Below, piece by piece: positions 8,321-55,900 of a stretch of 64,000 nucleotides of DNA (the stretch's first letter is position 1; every line of letters starts with the position of its first letter). Position numbers and translations under genes: made by a program. The stretch comes from Tethya wilhelma (lineage: Eukaryota; Porifera; Demospongiae; Tethyida; Tethyidae), in contig CAXIPT010000002.1 in the NCBI GenBank assembly GCA_964030475.1, forward strand, positions 12,754,270 to 12,818,269, written 5' to 3'. Under the pieces are notes generated by a model. The model saw only the letters and a program-made list of their open reading frames with translations. It was not told where the DNA came from and made no database searches.

Positions 8321-8654
8321 ACTTAGCCTACATCAGGAAGGAGGAATAGTATAATGTACGTATAGAAATCAATAATTATGTGGGGAAACAAATTTATAGA
8401 TTTATTTAGAATATCGTAACTAATTTTGGCACTATACAGCTAACATAAAAACAGAGAGATCTCAATTTAGAATGAGATGAACAAGATGGTCTTAATCTTG
8501 GTTGGCCCACCGTCACTGAGTTACACTTCATATCACTGATATTTATTATACTAGCTGACGTACATATCGGTGGCTGTGTATACATGAGGATGGTGTAAAA
8601 GAAACATGTGAATGAAACTTACTTTGCAAACTAGCTTCTGGCGTGCTAGCCCCA

Positions 8655-8745
8655 TTTTTCGTTTTGACGACCCCTTACCTACAACACACGGAATGTGTGT
8701 TTTAGGTAAGGGGGCGTCAAACCGAAAAATGGGGCTAGCTCGATA
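8655..8745. repeat. Perfect-arm hairpin, ~35-bp arms
   Basis: GCTAGCCCCATTTTTCG followed by a GACG/CCCTTACCTA segment is repeated inverted at 8710-8745 (TAGGTAAGGG, then CGAAAAATGGGGCTAGC). A 114-residue minus-strand open frame across it is only a by-product. Confidence 0.8.
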
Positions 8746-9151: not shown

Positions 9152-9879
9152 ACCACTACAACAAGCTTGCTGCAAGATATGATGTTTCCTATAAATATCT
9201 GAATTGTGGTATAGCCCAAGCTATATTGAAGCATGCACCACTTGAAGCTGAAGACAGGATTGCAGACATTGGGAGTGCCACTGGAGAAGTAGCCCATCAA
9301 GTTTGGAACTTGTGACAGAAGAAGCTCAAAAACCCCATACTGTGCGTTGAGCCAGTGAGTGCCATGATAGATGTAGCGAAAACCAAAGAAGGTCTTTGTC
9401 CAATAATTTGCAGCAGTGCAGAAGATTTTGTCTTTTCATTGTTGAAAGATAAGACTTTTGACAAGTATGTAGTGAGTAATTGTATGCACCATTTTCCAAA
9501 ACCAGCTTCAGTGCTCAAAGGCCTTTTAGACAAACTACCACAAGATGGAGCCTGCATTGTTAATCACATGCTAAGCATTTCAAACATGTTTCAAGCGATT
9601 GTTGATAAATTTGCCCAAGGCCAACTTGAGAAAAAGAATCTCATTGTGAAGGTTTTCAAAGAGATGGGCTTAGACTACACAGAAACAGTTGATGTGTATG
9701 TCACAAGAGTACCAAAGCTGGAGTGGTATGCCACATTACGCAGCCGATTCCTGTCTTATATGGAAGAGTACACCGATGATGAGATTGAGGCTGGTATAAA
9801 GGAAATGGACGAAAAACATTTGGGCGAGGACACGATTGAACTGAGGATGGACACAGTAGTGTGGGTGATAATGCAGTAA
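9152..9879 (+). pseudogene. SAM-dependent methyltransferase copy 1, nonsense-interrupted
   Basis: It is preceded by the acceptor CTTTCAG and aligns along its whole length with the intact exon at 26177-26898. It encodes HYNKLAARYDVSYKYLN, then the SAM-binding loop IADIGSATGEV. Immediately after, a TGA (9313-9315) interrupts the frame at HQVWNL, where copy 3 has HQVWKQKKL. The frame stays open downstream (CVEPVSAMIDVAK, CMHHFPKPASVL, then ELRMDTVVWVIMQ). An ATG at 9361 could start a C-terminal fragment, but that lacks motif I and could not bind SAM. I call it a pseudogene; a polymorphic or miscalled base is the alternative. It has the same C-terminal layout and length as copy 3 and stands 0.4 kb upstream of the ATP-grasp gene. 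Confidence 0.8.
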
Positions 9880-10160
9880 CATGCATACATGCACTAGCTG
9901 CTAGCCTGTTACTGCTTAGCAATTTAATATAATTTATAGTGACTAAATTATACGTGTCAGGCTAATTATTCAGTTGAGTTATTCTGACTTTATTGCTAGT
10001 GTGTGCAATGTGCCATCTATTTTGATAATATAAATATTATTGGAAATAAGACCATGATAATGACTCTGATGATATTAGGCTGTGTATAATGTGTAAATTA
10101 GGTACGTACCAATGAATGACTGCACTTGGCATGGGGTGTGGTTAACCCGTACACGCGCCG

Positions 10161-10183
10161 TGACTACGTGAACGTGACCACGT
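10161..10183 (+). promoter_or_regulatory. Duplicated TGACYACGT motif upstream of ATP-grasp gene
   Basis: TGACTACGT (10161-10169) and TGACCACGT (10175-10183) repeat with a 14-base offset, 40 bp upstream of the TATA box. They resemble bZIP/bHLH-type ACGT-core sites. Function is inference. Confidence 0.5.
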
Positions 10184-10222
10184 AACTTTGTGATAGCTCG
10201 ATTTTTGTGATCTTGCGGCTTC

Positions 10223-10230
10223 TATATAAA
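10223..10230 (+). promoter_or_regulatory. TATA box of the ATP-grasp gene
   Basis: TATATAAA in an otherwise GC-richer stretch. A start site about 30 bp downstream falls near 10255, so translation must begin at the ATG at 10305 rather than further upstream. Confidence 0.75.
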
Positions 10231-10304
10231 CGCAAGTGCAACGGTCAGTTGCAGGGACGCTGCGGTTGTTCGAGCAGAGGATCATCTACTTTATTGTTAT
10301 TATC

Positions 10305-11654
10305 ATGGAAACGGCGCCAAAAGAGGTTGTCATTTATTTGAGCCAAATAGGATCCTACTGCTATTTGCCTTACTTCAACTTGAGTAAAGATTCAATTTTT
10401 GACTACCAAGAATATCGTCTACCAAGTACTTTGAACGAGGAAGCTATCGAGCAATGTGTGAAGTATGTGCAAACACTTGGACAAAAGTGCGTGCTTTCTT
10501 TTACAGATGACACAACAACTGTAGCTGCAGTAATTAATAAGCGCCTGGGCTATCCATATCCATCTCTTGCATCACAAATCTACTGCTCGAACAAGCTACT
10601 CACACGCAAGCTTATAGATGAATTTGACTGGTACTATGGGTTCAATCTGGATGAGCCTTTGGAGTCTATTCTTGCAGTAGCAAATGGCCGGCCGTGTATG
10701 CTTAAACCCACCATGTCAGTCGCTGGTATCGCTGCTTATCGATGTGATAGTTCAGAATCACTTCGTACAGCCATCCAAACCATCTGTTCTAACAAGGAGT
10801 ATGTAGAAAAAGTCAAATCCCAACATGCTGAATTTGTCAAATTTCTCAGCGAAGGCAGTGAAGAGGTAGTCAAAGAATGTACTCAGTACATGATTGAAGA
10901 GCTCATTCAAATCAAAGATACTGGAATACACCAGTACTGCATTGAGGCCATCGTCACAACAGAAGGAAAGGTCATTCCTTACTCTTTTACAGAGGAATTC
11001 CTGTTCAAGAATGGAATGTGTCTTGGCGATATTACCCCACCTGTACATTGGGAAGGCTCTCTTCAAACATGTGAAGATTACATCATTCAAATTGGCAAGA
11101 AGCTGTACGAAATTGGTTTCCAGAATCAAATGTTTAATATTGAGTTTTGGAAATTTCCTGATGGAAAATTTCGACTTGTGGAAATCAACCCAAGAATTGG
11201 AACGACATACTTTTACCTAGAAAAGGTATACTGTGGTTGTCACCCAATTGATGATGTTACGAATCTCGTTCTTCACGGAAAAGTGCCAGTCAAAACTCCT
11301 TTTTTAAAATTAAAAGAGGAATGGCCTGTGAGTAAATACAACAGCAGTTCAGTATACACGCTCAATGTTAACCTGACAACACGAGTAGTTGGTAAAGCAA
11401 CAGATGTATTTGACTATGAAGTTATTGATAAAATGTTGGAGACACAAGGACCACTTCTTCTTAGAACCCCAAGAGATGCTGTGCTAACCAAAATGAACAA
11501 AACGTATGTGGGAACAAGTATGGTGCAAGCAATTGTGGAGGGCTCTTGGAATCATGTGGTGACACAAGCCAAAAATCTTCGAAAAAAATTCTACAAAGAT
11601 TGGTCACAGTGTGAAGAAAGCTCTGAATACCCCGAATACTTTAATTTAGTGTAG
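10305..11654 (+). CDS. ATP-grasp ligase, single exon (putative)
   Basis: A 449-residue ATP-grasp enzyme of the carboxylate-amine ligase type, expected to activate a carboxylate as acyl phosphate and join it to an amine. Visible features: N-terminal pre-ATP-grasp Rossmann-like half; lysine of the nucleotide site in CMLKPTMSVAG (~131-141); hinge MIEELI (~196-201); paired metal ligands in FNIEFW (~277-282) and VEINPR (~292-297), the hallmark of the fold. The start is the ATG at 10305: the frame is open further upstream but has no ATG there, and the TATA box at 10223-10230 leaves no room. A poly(A) signal AATAAA stands at 11706-11711. There is no intron, unlike its neighbours. It resembles bacterial biotin-carboxylase-like or carnosine-synthase-like ligases; the substrate is unknown. 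Its neighbours are a methyltransferase copy upstream and a MurL-like epimerase downstream. Confidence 0.85.
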   Translation: METAPKEVVIYLSQIGSYCYLPYFNLSKDSIFDYQEYRLPSTLNEEAIEQCVKYVQTLGQKCVLSFTDDTTTVAAVINKRLGYPYPSLASQIYCSNKLLTRKLIDEFDWYYGFNLDEPLESILAVANGRPCMLKPTMSVAGIAAYRCDSSESLRTAIQTICSNKEYVEKVKSQHAEFVKFLSEGSEEVVKECTQYMIEELIQIKDTGIHQYCIEAIVTTEGKVIPYSFTEEFLFKNGMCLGDITPPVHWEGSLQTCEDYIIQIGKKLYEIGFQNQMFNIEFWKFPDGKFRLVEINPRIGTTYFYLEKVYCGCHPIDDVTNLVLHGKVPVKTPFLKLKEEWPVSKYNSSSVYTLNVNLTTRVVGKATDVFDYEVIDKMLETQGPLLLRTPRDAVLTKMNKTYVGTSMVQAIVEGSWNHVVTQAKNLRKKFYKDWSQCEESSEYPEYFNLV

Positions 11655-11705
11655 CCACTATAGCTAACCATACATTAATATCATGCGTACATTAATTGTT
11701 TTGGC

Positions 11706-11711
11706 AATAAA
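11706..11711 (+). terminator. Poly(A) signal of ATP-grasp gene
   Basis: AATAAA, 52 bases after the stop codon. Confidence 0.75.
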
Positions 11712-12108
11712 AAGTGCTCATGATCTATTTGTGTGTAGCCATGTAGAATACAAAGTTAACTGAACGTTTATGAATTATTATTGCATGGTAAAGCTGCCAT
11801 CAAACTATACTTTCATCTTTCAAATCGAAGATTTTTTTCAAGCTAAATCAAGCAAATCATTAATTATTGCATATCTAATGAGGTGTTCAAATTTGTACAC
11901 TGGCTTTCAAAAATACAAAGGGTATAGTATACAAATTTGTACGATTTACCAATTTGCACAATTTGTATAAGCTTTTAGCTTCTGAAAAAAAAAATAAATA
12001 AGCACTAATAATTATATATACTTTATGCTTATATTCATAATTTTCAGATTAGACTTGCTACGTATTTTGCATGTTGAGGGTGAATAAATTATTTATAAAA
12101 TTGAGTAC

Positions 12109-12235
12109 AAGTAGTATTTTTTTTATAAAAGAATAAGTAGTGTAGGAATGGCAGTGCAGTAAAAAGTATATTGAAACAAGGCATGTCTCTTACTCTTTTG
12201 AAAAACACGCTACAACAGGCGCAAAGGGGGGGCCC
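12109..12235. repeat. Dispersed repeat also present at the window's right end
   Basis: GTGTAGGAATGGCAGTGC, then AACAAGGCATGT, matches 63952-64000 in the same orientation. A G-rich run (GGGGGGGCCCGGGGGCGGGG, about 12226-12245) follows. The rest of 11.7-13.0 kb holds no ORF of interest. Confidence 0.65.
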
Positions 12236-12401
12236 GGGGGCGGGGGAGGGGAACAGAACTAATTGTACCGAGTTGAGAAAGAGACCTCTTGTGAATAACG
12301 GATTTTCCGGTACAGAAAGACACTAGTGCAGAGAGTCGAACAAAGACTATACTAAAAGGTTCTCGCTGGTTTTTCCGAAAATTTCAGACCAAAGCGAGCG
12401 C

Positions 12402-12422
12402 GATGGTGAACGGCAATGTTAT
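12402..12422 (+). other. Possible upstream exon end / short leader ORF
   Basis: ATGGTGAACGGCAATGTTATG is followed at once by a strong donor, GTGAGT. An acceptor candidate CATGCAG lies at 12989-12994, just before the MurL-like ATG. This could be the 5' exon of that gene, but the spliced frame would not continue through this ATG, so it would be untranslated or a short uORF. Confidence 0.3.
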
Positions 12423-12549
12423 GGTGAGTATGAGAAGTTGACTCTAAAATTCATTATTTTTTCCTGCATTTTAGCGCTACTGTAGCATTGCAACAAAAAC
12501 CAGCGAGGGATGTTTAGTTCAGACCATTAGCTAACTAACAAGCGCTAGT

Positions 12550-12658
12550 CTGGTGCCCAGACCCTTTCTGCTAATTAGTAGGCGGGACAGGAAGTCTTTC
12601 TTCCTCCTCCCCCTTCCTGTCCCGCCTACTAATTAGCAGAAAGGGTCTGGGCACCACA
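12550..12658. repeat. Hairpin with ~43-bp arms
   Basis: Left arm starts CTGGTGCCCAGACCCTTTCT; right arm is its reverse complement ending near GGGTCTGGGCACCA. The loop is about 18 bases of pyrimidines. Confidence 0.9.
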
Positions 12659-13005
12659 GACTACGCTATGCCAAAGTCTGAGCTAGGCTTCTTCTGTACA
12701 TGATTTTTCAATTTTGTGTCTATGAATATCAATATCAGCTAACCGTAATTTTATTCATGATAATGGTTACCATGGCAACTAATTGTGAATCCCTATAAAG
12801 TACATAGATTACTATTGAAATAAGCTCTAAGTGAAGTAAGTGAAGTAATGACTGTATATCAGCCATCTAATTCATACCTTTTTCAATTGTTTGATTTTCC
12901 AGCTAAGGCCTGATCGTCCTTAACTGACCTGAGTTTATAAGGAGTCTGTTTTGAAAATAATAATCAGCCATCACATGTGGCGATTCTCATGCAGACTGCG
13001 GAGAG

Positions 13006-14433
13006 ATGACTCATGTAGAAACTACCGATAAAATACTTCGTTTAGAATCTATTAGCTGGTCAGGACCACAGCTCTACATAGACATTACATTCGATGGAGT
13101 TAAATTCCCCACTGTTCTTTGGTACGAATTCAATCTTCAAGAGCTACACAACTACTATGGAGATGAGGCAGCACTAAGAGTGTACTTTCACATTGCAGCC
13201 TTTAGTCTCCTTAAATTGACATCATTTAAGCCAACAGTCATTGAAATTAGCAAGAAGCTAGCTGGTTGTTACACGACAAAGTTTGAAGAGCTGTGGAAGA
13301 TTTGTTTCCAGCGTGTTATGGGACAGTGGCGCTATGAAAATGGTATGGCCAACTGGAAGGGTCCTAGATTCACATGTGAACCATCTGACACTGAATCTAC
13401 ACCAGCCAAGATCAAAAGTCCTCAAGTGTTCAATGGTGATGACCCAGTTAAAAGCATTGCTTACTGTGGTGGAGGTAAAGACAGCTTGCTGTCAATTAAG
13501 CTCTTGGAGAAAGCAAACCTATCGTTTTCATCTTTTTCCTACTCAATAAGCAGGTATGGTTCAGCAAGGGAACAACATGATCGTGCACAACAAGTTCTTC
13601 AACACTGCCAACCAACAAAGCGTCACTGGGTGATGATAAATGACACATTTTTGGATATTCCGTTGGATAATGATCAGTGGTTGAGGAAACATGGAGTTAG
13701 CAATAGGAGTGATGCTGCACCAACAGAACTCTTTTCAATTCTTCCTATAATAATGCACTATGGTTATCAGTATGCGGTTGTTGCCAATGAGTATAGTGCA
13801 AATGCTGGAAATTTTGAGTGGGCAGCTGAAGGTGGAAAGCTAGTCAACCATCAGTGGGAAAAGTCTTATGAAGCAGAAAGGCTATTTGCTAGTTACATCA
13901 ACCAAGTGCTTGTCAACATCCACTACTATAGCATCCTACAGCCCATCCACGATGTGCTGATATTCGTATTGCTACGACAACACTTGGAATGTGTACCCCA
14001 TGTCCACTCCTGCAATGTTTCACCACCGTGGTGCAAACGCTGTCCAAAGTGCTGTTACGTCTGGTTATGCTTTCAGGCATACTTGCCTCAACATGTGATT
14101 GACCCCATGTTCAACGGTGAAAACCTACTGGATGTTCCTGAAAATGAGATCATCTTCACCCAGCTATTAGGCCTTGGAGATTTCAAACCATTCGAATGTG
14201 TTGGTGAATTTAAGGAAGTTCAACTAGCATTTGAATTGTGCCGGCGAAAAGGTCTTTGTGGACGTGCCATGGAAACATTTGAGAGAAAATTTGGCCCAGT
14301 GCTGGATATTACACCAATACTGAAAGCGTACACTGTTGTTCACAAAGAACACTTAATTCCCACTAATGTAGCTCAACTTGTCCTAGCTGAAATGGAAAAG
14401 GCTGCAGCTTTTTCAATTAATATTACTGATTAG
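13006..14433 (+). CDS. MurL-family amino-acid epimerase-like protein, single exon
   Basis: The 475-residue protein matches the layout I know for MurL, the bacterial enzyme that epimerises the terminal L-Glu of UDP-MurNAc-L-Ala-L-Glu through an adenylated intermediate. Landmarks: PP-loop ATP pyrophosphatase motif CGGGKDSLLSIKLLE (~154-168); AVVANEYSAN (~257-266); VNHQWEKSYEAE (~280-291); RYY-like HYYSILQP (~307-314); the cysteine block HSCN plus WCKRCPKC (~334-349); and KPFECVGE (~394-401). Length is that of the bacterial family. It starts at the first ATG and has no intron. Animals make no peptidoglycan, so the substrate here must differ or derive from bacteria. Family membership is from recalled conserved motifs, with no search run; the function in this organism is inference. 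It lies 1.35 kb downstream of the ATP-grasp gene on the same strand. Confidence 0.82.
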   Translation: MTHVETTDKILRLESISWSGPQLYIDITFDGVKFPTVLWYEFNLQELHNYYGDEAALRVYFHIAAFSLLKLTSFKPTVIEISKKLAGCYTTKFEELWKICFQRVMGQWRYENGMANWKGPRFTCEPSDTESTPAKIKSPQVFNGDDPVKSIAYCGGGKDSLLSIKLLEKANLSFSSFSYSISRYGSAREQHDRAQQVLQHCQPTKRHWVMINDTFLDIPLDNDQWLRKHGVSNRSDAAPTELFSILPIIMHYGYQYAVVANEYSANAGNFEWAAEGGKLVNHQWEKSYEAERLFASYINQVLVNIHYYSILQPIHDVLIFVLLRQHLECVPHVHSCNVSPPWCKRCPKCCYVWLCFQAYLPQHVIDPMFNGENLLDVPENEIIFTQLLGLGDFKPFECVGEFKEVQLAFELCRRKGLCGRAMETFERKFGPVLDITPILKAYTVVHKEHLIPTNVAQLVLAEMEKAAAFSINITD

Positions 14434-25500: not shown

Positions 25501-28500
25501 GCGGGCAGGGCAATATTTTGGCGTACCCCACGCTAAATATCCCACCCATATATATAGGTGGGATTTAGCGTAGGGGTACGCTATTTTCCTCCAATATATG
25601 ACGCTACGTGACTCCCATATATATTGGAGAAAAATAGCGTACCCCTACGCTAAATCCCACCTATATATATGGGTGGGAGAGATCAAATAGTGTAATTTTA
25701 TCTATACCCATCCCATCCGTGCCATAATAATATACTTGCATGCTAGCCTATTAGGAGTGTTAGTTCCAACTAAGCAGACATTGGCTACAAGTCCAAGTAA
25801 CACATGCATGCTGCATTTCAGTGATGCAAAATGGGTGAAGATACAGCTGTATCCAGCATCCAACCTCAGCTGGATTGCATGACATTTGTACAAGAGTACT
25901 ACCATATAACGAGAAATCTTCGTACGGTGGAAATTTTCATAAAATTATTTCGTATGTGGTTCGAATATACGAAAACTTTCGCATTTACTTTATACAAGCG
26001 TGCGCCGCATATACGACATTTAAAACTACAAAAATTTCTTCTGGCACGTTTATACGAAATTTTGCACCAACGAAAATTTCCCGCTAATTCAAAAATAGTT
26101 AATTGGGTGGTAAAGTTGTATTTAGTATCACTATATGATTGCATGGATGCATATTATATCTTCTTCTGGATTTCAGACCACTACAACAAGCTTGCTCCAA
26201 CATATGATGTCTGTTACAAATACCTGAATCAAGGTATAGCTCAAGCTCTAGTAAAGCATGCACCACTTGAAGCTGAAGACAGGATTGCAGACATTGGGAG
26301 TGCCACTGGAGAAGTAGCCCATCAAGTCTGGAAACAGAAGAAGCTCAAACACCCCATACTGTGTGTCGAGCCAGTGAGTGCCATGATAGATGTAGCGAAA
26401 ACCAAAGAAGGCCTCACATCAATTTGTAGCAGTGCAGAAGACTTTGTCTCTTCGTTGAAAAATTACGAGAAGACTTTTGACAAGTTTATACTGAGTGGCT
26501 GTATGCATCACTTTGCAGACCCAGCCTCAGTACTTCACGGTCTTTTGAATGAACTACCCCAAAATGGAGCCTGCATCATTACTCACAATATGAGCTTTTC
26601 AAACATGTTTGAAGCTATTGTTGATAAATATGCACTAAGTCAACTTGAGAAAAAAATTCTATTTGTGAAGGTTTTTAAAGAGATGGGCTTGAATTACAAA
26701 GAAATGCTTGATGTATACGTCACAAGCATACCAAAGCTAGAGTGGTATGCCACATTGCGCAGAAGATTTACCTCTTACTTAGAAGAGTACACTGACGATG
26801 AGATTGAGGCTGGTATAAAGGAAATAGAAGAGAAGCATTTCGGTCAGGACACAATTGAACTGAGGATGGAAACAGTAGTGTGGGTGATAACACAGTAACT
26901 AAATTGCTAACTAGCACAGTAACTTATAGTTATTATTATAATAATTTTATTATAGAAATAGTGTTAACAGTAGTATTTGCAACACCAGTTGGCTTCAGTC
27001 ATTGAGGTCAGCTGCCAGTAGCATAATGCATACGGACAGTAGTAGAGAACTACTCACTTTTTTTACTTATCTATTTATTTGTGTCAGCTACTAGAAAGCT
27101 TATAATAACAATAATAATAACTTATAGTGGTTATTTATTTTAATTCAGCTGATTTTCCAATAATATTTATCTATGCCTGATGTTAATCTAAACACTTCTT
27201 CCTGAGGAGGGACTAATCATACGTACGATAGTACATATAGTATAGGAACATATAGGCTGAGAGCGCTCCTGAATGGCCTCAACTATATGAGCCAACAAAA
27301 CTAACAGAAACTTTTCTACATGGAGAGAGTGGAGAGTGAGTGGACTAGTAAATACTAGTCCTAGCGAATTCTTCCTCTCTCTCCTTCCCTTAAATCCTAA
27401 CTGACTTACTTAAACACGATTTCCAGAGAACAAAAGGCATAAAGCCAACTTTGATCATACAAAGTAACTTCATTTCAACCAAACAACTGTGAACATACAC
27501 CTTTATACTCGTTTACTGTCTACAAAATTATAAGAAACAAAAAGCTGTCTCTAATTATCTCCATGCAATTAAACACTTTAGCATTGAAAGTGAATGGACA
27601 AGACTAGTGGTAAAATTTCATAAAAAAAGGAGTGTAGGAATTGGTTAGACTTGTTCCCAGGCACCCCGCCTACCTTACACATTTCATTACGTGTAAGGTA
27701 GGGGGGGAGCCTGGGAATGACGCTAGAAATTGGTACTCTTGACTATAAAAATGTTACACGACTCTCCTTTTACAGTGTACTTTAGCTCTACCAATAATGA
27801 CCATGTACAGTGTACTATGTACCTTCATCAGTGACTGTAAAAATAATGATGCAGAAGAATGAGGAGCTACTGGAGTGGCCCAGAGAGCTGGAACATATCC
27901 TGTGAAATAAATATCCACAATCATGATCATAATGTATTGTACTGGTCAATATTGATACATCTATAACGACATCATGCTTGTATGAAAATTCAATGAAAAA
28001 AAAACCCAAAAAACCTGATCTACATGTAGCTGGGATATAAACCCTTGGTCTTTTGAATTCAAGTCGAATGCTCTTAGCACTGTACTAGAACTCATAGGCA
28101 TTGGAGCAGAGAATAGTAGATTAAACTACTCTTCACACACACTATCAACTTCCAAACCAGATCTCAAGGCATGACCCACATGATGCGAATACCGTATAGC
28201 GGGAAATTTTCGGGGGTGTAAATTTTCGTGAAAAGCCTAGACCACACTTCAGAAGAAAATATTCGTGGTTTTAATTTTCGTGACTCAAGTATCTCCAACT
28301 TACAGCGCTTAAAAAGGTTACGGGGTACAAAGTGCAAAATCATGGATATGAATAATTTATGAGCACAAAAAATCTACTAAAATTAGCAACAGAACTGTAC
28401 GATCAAAACTCTTCCTGATTTAGAAGCACAGTAGCAGTCAGTTTGTTCTTGGAAAGTATAAAATCTAGTTTTCATAGCTGTTCTGTCAAGTGCTACAGTG

Positions 28501-52990: not shown

Positions 52991-55900
52991 TTAACAGAAT
53001 GAAATGCGTGAGTCAATTGACACTGAATCAAAGTTAGTTTCAATTGCAAATGTTTGAACACATTTTAAATTAAATTTGTTCAATTGAAGAGCAGCATTGA
53101 GTGTAAGAAATTGTGATTGAGATAGGCAGGTGTACAATTTCAATGTTTCTAATGTTTGATTACAACGGATCATTTTAGCAACAGAGAACACAATCTCATC
53201 ACTAAGCCTGTCGAATACTCCAATATTCAAGACCTTCAAATGACAATTCTTGCATAGCACCAGAGCAACTGAAGAAATAAATTCGGAGGATGAATACCTT
53301 ATTGCTATCTTTATAAGATTATTATTCTTTTCTAGCAATCTGACAGCTTCACTAGTTCGTTCAAGTTCAAAAAACCTGATACTTTCTAGAGATGATGGCG
53401 AAAAAACTGTCTTCAACATGATCTCTGTTGTTTCGCATGACATGCCACTGTCTCCAATCCAAAGGTCTCTGAGACTGGAAGATGGTGTTACCAAGTGAGA
53501 TAAAGCTTTAATGTCTGCACAGCTAATCCCTGTGTCACATATATAAAGTATTTGCAAAGTCCTGAGATGAGACAATGAATGGAGAAGCTTCACAAGTCCA
53601 CCATTACCAGCCGGATTACAACTAACATTGAGTTCCTTTAAGTTTATCATTAGTGGGATCATGTCAGCCAGTAGATCAAAAGCTGATGCATCTAAAGCAC
53701 ACCCAAGAAATTTTAGTGTCAGAATGTTTGTATGCCCCTTTTGAAAACAAGGACTATAATTGCTTGGAAAACATAATCCATAGTTAAGCATTTCAACTGG
53801 CGCACTACCAAATGACAAACTATGACTTACTTTCAACTTCCACATGCACTTGCTTTTAGCTATACAGTAACCAGCAACATAACAATCAAATGCAGAAATA
53901 TTGAATCCAAAAAAATATGAATCAGAATCTCCAAATAATCTCTCGAAATCTGCCTTCTTTTGAGCTTCATACAAACACTGAGCAAAGAAAGGTTTCACTT
54001 TGCCTTCCCTGTCCTTTCCTCTTCTTGACCGAACCATCTCCCATCCAATTCCACGGAACCCAGTTAGACCAGCCACAAACTTCCAGACTACATCCCAACT
54101 TGTTATAGGTACCTCACAATACTTCTCAAATATTCCTTTCTGATCACTTGGTGAGAGCTGAGAGATGTAAAATGCAGCAAGAAATTCTTGAAAGGTCAAA
54201 TGCAAGAAGCTATGAGAGATTGAAGCTTTTCTCCCCATGTATAACTCAGTTGTACAATTCATGAAACCAAAATGGACAAAGTTATTGGGAAGGTTATGAA
54301 AGATCACCTCATTTCTTTCAAGACCCCCAAATGCTAGCTCACCTAAGGAACTGAATGGTGTGTATAACTGTGGTGGAAGGTCTTCTAATGTTCCTGAGAG
54401 TCCTTCAGTCGATGGGTCATCCTCACCTAAGTGTCGTTGCAGTAGTGTCAGACTCATCTCAGTGTAGAGTTGAGTCATAGTCTGAGGTATAGGCCTATTA
54501 AGGGTTCTATTGTGCCTAAAGGTTTCTGCTATTATTGCACAATTCAGTGGAATATACATCAAGCTTCTGATAGCTGGATGGGTGGATATGTATGTGAAGA
54601 AATCAGCTAATACATCAGGTTTGGAAGCAAAGAAGGTCCTGGCATATTGCTCAACATATTCTTGGGTAAAGCCTATTACTTCTATTTCCTTGTGTATTTT
54701 AGGTCTAACTTTATAAAGCTCGGCTGTGGCAGAAGGACGACCAGTTACAAGCACTGTGCAATGAGAAAGGTATGTACCCTGGATAACTTTAGTTAAAATA
54801 CTAGAACCCTTTTGCTGGAGGGAAGGAGGGAGTTCATCAAAGCCATCTAACATGAACAGTACATCCTTCCCCTCACACATTTCAATCTTAGCTGCTACAG
54901 CTTGCCGGAGCTCCTTGTTGTCATGGTAACACAGATCCTCTACATTGCTAGCTTCTTGCACTCGCTTCTCACGTAACTGAAGAAGAATGACCAGTGAAAA
55001 TCTTTTCAGAGCATCTATTTTGTCCCACTGCCTACAAAGCTCTCCCACACATGTGCTCTTTCCAACACCAGGTGCACCATACATGTAAACACACTTCATT
55101 TTGTGCTGACCTTCTACCGGCCTCATAACCTCCTCTAGTTTGATAGGCTCCTTCTTCTGAAGGATCTCATCTATGTTTCCGTGAAGTGTAGCCTTTGTAA
55201 ATTCATCAGCTTCCGAGCGACTGATTTGACCACTGTGACCTTTGACGAGGGCCAGGTTGATGAACTCATTGCAGGTGAGGTATGGGAACTTGTCCGAAGA
55301 CACAAGAGCACTCTCGTACACTCCTTTCAGATACAGAGCATAGCGTTGTATAGGGTCTAGGGGAATGATGAGCTGTCCAGTGTCAGCGTCTGTGGTGTGC
55401 ATTAAACAATAAACACGAGATCATTGACTCCTAAAGTACGAGTGTAAATCGTAAATCTTAGGTTGAAGAAGTAACCAGTGTTAATTTGATCTCAAACCTC
55501 ACTGTCGATCAGTTCAACTAGATAATTGTTTACGTCACAACAATCATAGCTAGTAAACCAAATGGTTGGCCAGTTTATAACTTACCATTTTCTCTAAGTA
55601 CTTTGCAAACTGCTTCTGCGCAGTCTCCTTTACCAGCTCTCACAAATGCTGTGATCAGAGCCCTGTATGTAGCCATGGGACCAAACTTTTCTTGCCACTT
55701 CTGCAAAGCAGCTCTCCTAGAGAAACAGAACAGGAAGCAAGATAATCCCAGACAAATATGACTTCCACTATATCACATATAAGTGTATACTAACGTTTGG
55801 AGAGGTAGTTCTCCAGGGTATTTCGTTCTGATAGCTCAACTACAGGTCTGGTCAACAGAAGCTGTTCGGCTACATTCCCCTCCCATTCATCCATTGAACG

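Follow-up and report, generated by a model that had tools for sequence, protein, structure and literature searches.

We describe here a window of 64,000 nucleotides from the sponge Tethya wilhelma (contig CAXIPT010000002.1, in an assembly of 124.6 Mb; coordinates without a prefix count from the first letter of this stretch), with emphasis on a gene whose predicted product resembles MurL, the bacterial muropeptide glutamate epimerase. This MurL-like PP-loop gene (13006..14433, + strand) is one open frame of 475 codons, and it shares 5.3 kb with two other frames of the same strand, one for a protein similar to ATP-grasp amide ligases (10305, the ATG, to 11654, the end of the stop codon; 449 codons in one open frame) and one for a copy of a class I S-adenosylmethionine (SAM) methyltransferase that is a probable pseudogene (9152..9876). 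A first-pass annotation, made from the letters of the DNA, had grouped the three as an acquired pathway to a D-glutamate-containing metabolite. The contig is chromosome-scale animal DNA, and matches to MH2, NACHT, ankyrin and translin domains occur among the 36 window frames that were scanned.

The product of the MurL-like frame carries the motifs CGGGKDS, VNHQW, SCN..PWCKRCPKC and KPFECVGE. An intron ahead of position 13006 was considered by eye, and the N-termini of homologous proteins agree with a start at that position. Five such genes exist in the genome, three on C1 and two on C2, and the window copy is 71-88% identical to the other four. All five are single open frames, so that the lack of introns reported in the first-pass annotation for the MurL-like and ATP-grasp genes holds for both and extends to the whole MurL-like set. 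For the ten pairs of copies, the ratio of nonsynonymous to synonymous change (dN/dS) lies between 0.11 and 0.16, at synonymous distances (dS) of 0.45 to 1.9, the larger of which are near saturation; judged from these values, the copies arose by old duplication and are kept by selection. In two of the five (own_L006 and own_L007) the PP-loop reads GGGKDG and not GGGKDS, perhaps an altered ATP site. Of a total of 1970 homologues 120 were listed, and bacterial proteins about 40-44% identical to the sponge protein exist. With such relatives on one side and a contig bearing animal genes on the other, the earlier claim of a bacterial-type gene in animal DNA stands: at the level of sequence, this is a real animal gene that is old, expanded and functional-looking.

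The resemblance to MurL does not extend to membership in that family. The sponge protein and the MurL-clade proteins have in common the PP-loop motif, NHQ..K, SCN, CxxCxKC and PFECxGE, but these motifs are shared by a wider superfamily, so that the motifs named in the first-pass annotation are present and the name drawn from them is not upheld. Against the MurL equivalog model (NCBIfam NF041275, cut-off 700 bits) the sponge protein scores 120.6 bits, and Amphimedon, EukProt and four bacterial relatives that were tested score 104-135 bits. The same model found, in 274 gammaproteobacterial genomes, two proteins over the cut-off (810 and 821 bits), a further four at 381-550 bits and a single weak hit of 62 bits. 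The sponge protein is 22-24% identical to the MurL-clade proteins, and differs from them by the absence of an insert that follows SCN in the MurL-clade rows of the alignment. Gene partners differ as well. MurD adjoins the MurL-clade gene at three of six loci by model (L130, L132 and L134) and at L129 by eye, and was not seen in L131 and L133, whose flanks are short, whereas a scan of frames near the animal MurL-like copies, weak for intron-split genes, showed no Mur ligase family.

A first fast phylogenetic tree was built from 55 of the 120 listed homologues and from those 56 of 80 bacterial loci that have a MurL-like frame of 401-519 residues. From a clade of 38 in this tree, 29 rows were carried as "animal-like" into a more careful tree of 67 rows that also held five of the six MurL-clade loci (L133 was left out), two of these being over the cut-off and three at 381-550 bits. 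The five MurL-clade rows stand apart from the 62 relatives with support of 100/100, and the branch between the two groups is about 2.9 changes per column long. The animal-like rows group together (95/98), the Amphimedon and EukProt proteins and the five sponge copies among them; the label rests on one protein from each of the first two sources and on these five copies, and the evidence is the branch support rather than a test of the label. Cyanobacteria are the bacterial sister of this clade in the fast tree (support 82), and the careful tree gives no settled sister. Active-site residues are shared: 34 columns that are invariant in the five MurL-clade rows are at least 90% conserved in both other groups. 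Because it falls below the cut-off, in a separate clade and among other gene partners, the animal protein is by sequence not MurL and probably represents a separate sister family. An old animal clade devoid of bacterial relatives had been envisaged beforehand as an outcome that would speak against an acquired gene; the clade does appear to be old, but bacterial relatives at 40-44% identity exist.

Conversion of ATP to AMP is described for MurL in excerpts of PMC8788868 and PMC5808125, and an excerpt of the latter also mentions MurL orthologues of low similarity in a fungus, cyanobacteria and an amoeba. No link of MurL to sponges or to ergothioneine was found among the literature matches listed; a sponge paper (PMC3908369) was set aside, the letters being, in its matching excerpt, merely part of an author's name.

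Clues to the function of the new family come from the gene partners of its bacterial members. We clustered the neighbor frames at the best 80 of at least 561 relatives (L049-L128; 31 loci are shorter than 12 kb and 49 longer). Two partner clusters recur most often, EgtB/OvoA-type sulfoxide synthases at 22 loci and EgtD histidine methyltransferases at 19; one or the other is present at 28 of the 80 loci (22 of the 49 loci of at least 12 kb) and both are present at 13. Scanned one by one, the 19 EgtD frames all match their own model (E up to 1e-85), and the 22 synthase frames divide into 11 that match the EgtB model and eight that match the OvoA model, each at E up to 1e-105, and three with poorer matches to both, one of which (at L058) is under both cut-offs. 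A 64-base overlap between the EgtD and MurL-like frames at L050 is due to an over-long start and was not counted as real. Linked loci occur in the Acidobacteriota (2/9), Bacteroidota (2/4), Pseudomonadota (5/11), Myxococcota (7/19), Actinomycetota (1/2) and Cyanobacteriota (11/27). EgtD is over its cut-off in all 22 genomes of MurL-like relatives that were tested, with a linked gene seen locally at just eight of their 22 loci; the background is 63 of 146 genomes in a cyanobacterial sample and none of 14 controls. The bacterial relatives thus do co-occur with ergothioneine and ovothiol genes, and often lie inside or next to the sets formed by EgtB, EgtD and OvoA. The egtABCDE set itself is presented as five genes in an excerpt of PMC9103826, in which an adenylating PP-loop step is not mentioned. 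Other recurrent neighbors at the 80 loci are a choline/betaine-type ABC transporter (18), a DUF427 protein (16) and a B12-type radical SAM protein (10), these counts being of sequence clusters with one or two members scanned.

The fold predicted for the sponge protein is QatC/QueC-like, with QatC, QueC and Cap9 as the nearest solved folds, and it occurs together with the GGGKDS ATP loop, as in QueC-like PP-loop proteins. The correspondence spans the PP-loop domain and, for QatC, most of the length of the protein, but identity in the fold alignments is 8-14%, the alignments to QueC and Cap9 begin only near residue 147, and the presumed substrates differ.

From these observations the MurL-like protein probably uses ATP to activate a carboxylate, with a link in bacteria to thiohistidine metabolism. 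Its substrate is probably some small amino acid and not a cell-wall component, given the distance from MurL and the frequent position of bacterial relatives beside ergothioneine or ovothiol genes. The PP-loop enzyme would adenylate the carboxylate of this substrate with ATP, releasing pyrophosphate and later AMP, as is thought for MurL, and the bacterial members would act in the metabolism of Nalpha-methylated or thiolated histidine, of the ergothioneine or ovothiol type. Activation of the alpha-carboxylate could then make the alpha-proton acidic and permit a one-way inversion of that carbon, as in MurL; we propose inversion because residues of the MurL clade are conserved beyond the ATP loop as well. 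Almost as likely, the adenylate would instead be turned into an amide. The animal lineage might have taken the gene from bacteria long ago and made at least five copies of it, which it keeps under selection and often near a small-molecule methyltransferase. As a whole, this combination of a sister family of MurL, carboxylate adenylation with inversion, a thiohistidine role and an old bacterial transfer is the best explanation that we can offer, and we hold it tentatively, at somewhat less than even confidence. A wider version, in which the family supplies an ATP-driven inversion or amidation to an unrecognized branch of ergothioneine/ovothiol chemistry in many bacteria, and in which an early animal lineage captured and multiplied it for modified thiohistidine or betaine compounds of its own, is rather unlikely as a complete statement. 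Some members of the family are named UDP-N-acetyl-alpha-D-muramoyl-L-alanyl-L-glutamate epimerase in databases (the Amphimedon protein is an example), and the bacterial partners point instead to antioxidant thiol metabolism, so that a cell-wall story might give way to a thiol-metabolism one that can be tested. If correct, the latter would add a missing enzymatic step to ergothioneine/ovothiol chemistry, kept and expanded in an animal lineage.

Several observations weigh against a thiohistidine role or against inversion. At 52 of the 80 loci from bacteria, among them 27 of the 49 that are longer, no EgtB/OvoA or EgtD gene is seen, and the co-occurrence counts ignore shared ancestry. Cyanobacteria often encode EgtD anyway, and in the cyanobacterial sample the MurL-like query has matches in five genomes, four of which encode EgtD; the fifth, matched by a fragment of about 100 residues only, does not. 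No glutamate racemase was over its cut-off in the four Thiotrichaceae genomes among the 22 (G002, G003, G004 and G006; loci L053, L054, L060 and L064), and here the MurL-like protein, even beside EgtD or EgtB, could have a role in D-glutamate supply; incomplete assemblies are a possible alternative cause of the missing racemase. Two residues of the PP-loop vary within the MurL clade, K158 being missing in one row and D159 in another. In the animal, OvoA-like exons lie at C5:3990468-3993809, with pieces at C1:19785752-19788561, and make a link to thiohistidine chemistry possible, but no MurL-like copy is near these exons, no EgtD match was found in the animal genome by a search that is weak for intron-split genes, and the animal methyltransferases have no similarity to the bacterial neighbor proteins (E up to 1e-3).

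The first-pass annotation was correct in placing an ATP-grasp ligase-like gene beside the MurL-like one. Its product matches PF13535 at 27.6 bits (cut-off 27), and the predicted structure, with a mean confidence (pLDDT) of 84.9, has BacD/YwfE and the L-amino acid ligase 3vot as its top matches in the PDB (E about 1e-15, TM about 0.6), closely followed in the ranking by purK and biotin carboxylases. In having both this domain and this fold it resembles the L-amino acid dipeptide ligases, from which it differs in being 12-14% identical to them, and amide formation is predicted for it. Relatives are few, numbering 15 and then 18 among 5.8 billion proteins. Within the sponge the gene is found at five places (the window, C7, C2:8529493, C1 and C4), with weaker relatives besides, and for the pair from the window and C7 dN/dS is 0.13. 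One copy is split over two frames (L010/L012, C1:25394290-25395631) and another has decayed, with several stops (L013-L016, C4:6538398-6539540).

The neighboring methyltransferase proved to be a class I piece, as claimed (positions 9355-9876, within a methyltransferase piece at 9316-9876, match PF08241 at 22.5 bits, cut-off 21.2), but comparison by eye with a paralogue shows an in-frame TGA at 9313-9315, and the copy is therefore probably non-functional. This paralogue, an uninterrupted frame at 25825..26895 (+ strand), lies downstream of the MurL-like gene at a distance of 11.4 kb and shares 76% identity with the part at 9355-9876; a Methyltransf_31/11 match was recorded in one of the 36 scanned window frames, which was not specified as this one. 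At least 25 matches to methyltransferases of this type occur in the genome, and 17 of 20 frames are open across 230-277 codons, so that mostly uninterrupted genes are not rare. Three MurL-like loci of the five have one or more methyltransferases nearby, namely the window, C1:23722105 (two within 3 kb) and C2:6898406 (within 3 kb), and none was found near the remaining two. Between loci the methyltransferases are 30-39% identical and hence far more diverged than the MurL-like genes. An association of the MurL-like gene with methyltransferases in the animal is plausible, but the triple does not recur as a unit, since the window is the one place where ATP-grasp adjoins a MurL-like gene. The remaining Pfam matches around the MurL-like paralogues are ordinary animal domains and one GNAT-matching frame at C2:6898406, where two GNAT acetyltransferase matches lie in a single frame (L007:3857-4387, running into L046:1-585) beside the MurL-like gene and the methyltransferase.

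The nearest competitor to the proposed inversion is a QueC-like amide or nitrile synthase, in which ammonia or an amine would attack the adenylated carboxylate to give an amino acid amide or betaine amide in place of a D-isomer. QueC forms an amide and a nitrile from an adenylated carboxylate, and the predicted structure of the sponge protein has its closest solved counterparts in just this group, but the NHQ..K, PFEC.GE and SCN motifs held in common with MurL-clade proteins suggest chemistry of the MurL type, and we regard the synthase as a doubtful though serious candidate. The joint pathway of the first-pass annotation, in which glutamate attached by the ATP-grasp enzyme would be inverted by the MurL-like one before methylation of the product by the methyltransferase, draws on the closeness of the three genes, on the fold of the ligase, on the recurrence of methyltransferases near MurL-like loci and on similar dS values to the nearest paralogue (0.45 for the MurL-like gene and 0.48 for ATP-grasp). 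It is improbable and no longer supported, considering that the other four ATP-grasp places are all away from MurL-like genes, that the methyltransferase copy is interrupted, that the protein lies outside the MurL clade and that none of the neighbor frames of the 80 bacterial loci match ATP-grasp (E up to 1e-3).

An animal enzyme acting on muropeptide fragments from eaten or symbiotic bacteria would agree with the distant kinship to MurL and with the Thiotrichaceae relatives that have no racemase over the cut-off. It has little probability for a protein that is not MurL by score or tree, in a genome where no Mur ligase match was found (the search being weak for intron-split genes), and among relatives most of which have another route to D-glutamate, since in 18 of their 22 genomes a glutamate racemase scores above the cut-off. 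An intronless frame with bacterial homologues might also call to mind bacterial contamination or a recent transfer, which is very improbable indeed for a gene with five copies at the synonymous distances given above, on a chromosome-scale contig with animal genes, with a base composition like that of its flanks and in a clade shared with Amphimedon and EukProt proteins.

Sequence searches of the PDB yielded no close relative of the MurL-like, ATP-grasp or methyltransferase proteins, and a scan of viral contigs yielded no relative. Read by eye, two fold-back inverted repeats, similar to miniature inverted-repeat transposable elements, lie in the window, one (8650-8745) upstream of the methyltransferase copy and the other (12555-12660) upstream of the MurL-like gene. 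Farther along the window, an 809-codon frame that encodes a NACHT domain occupies positions 52994-55420 of the - strand.

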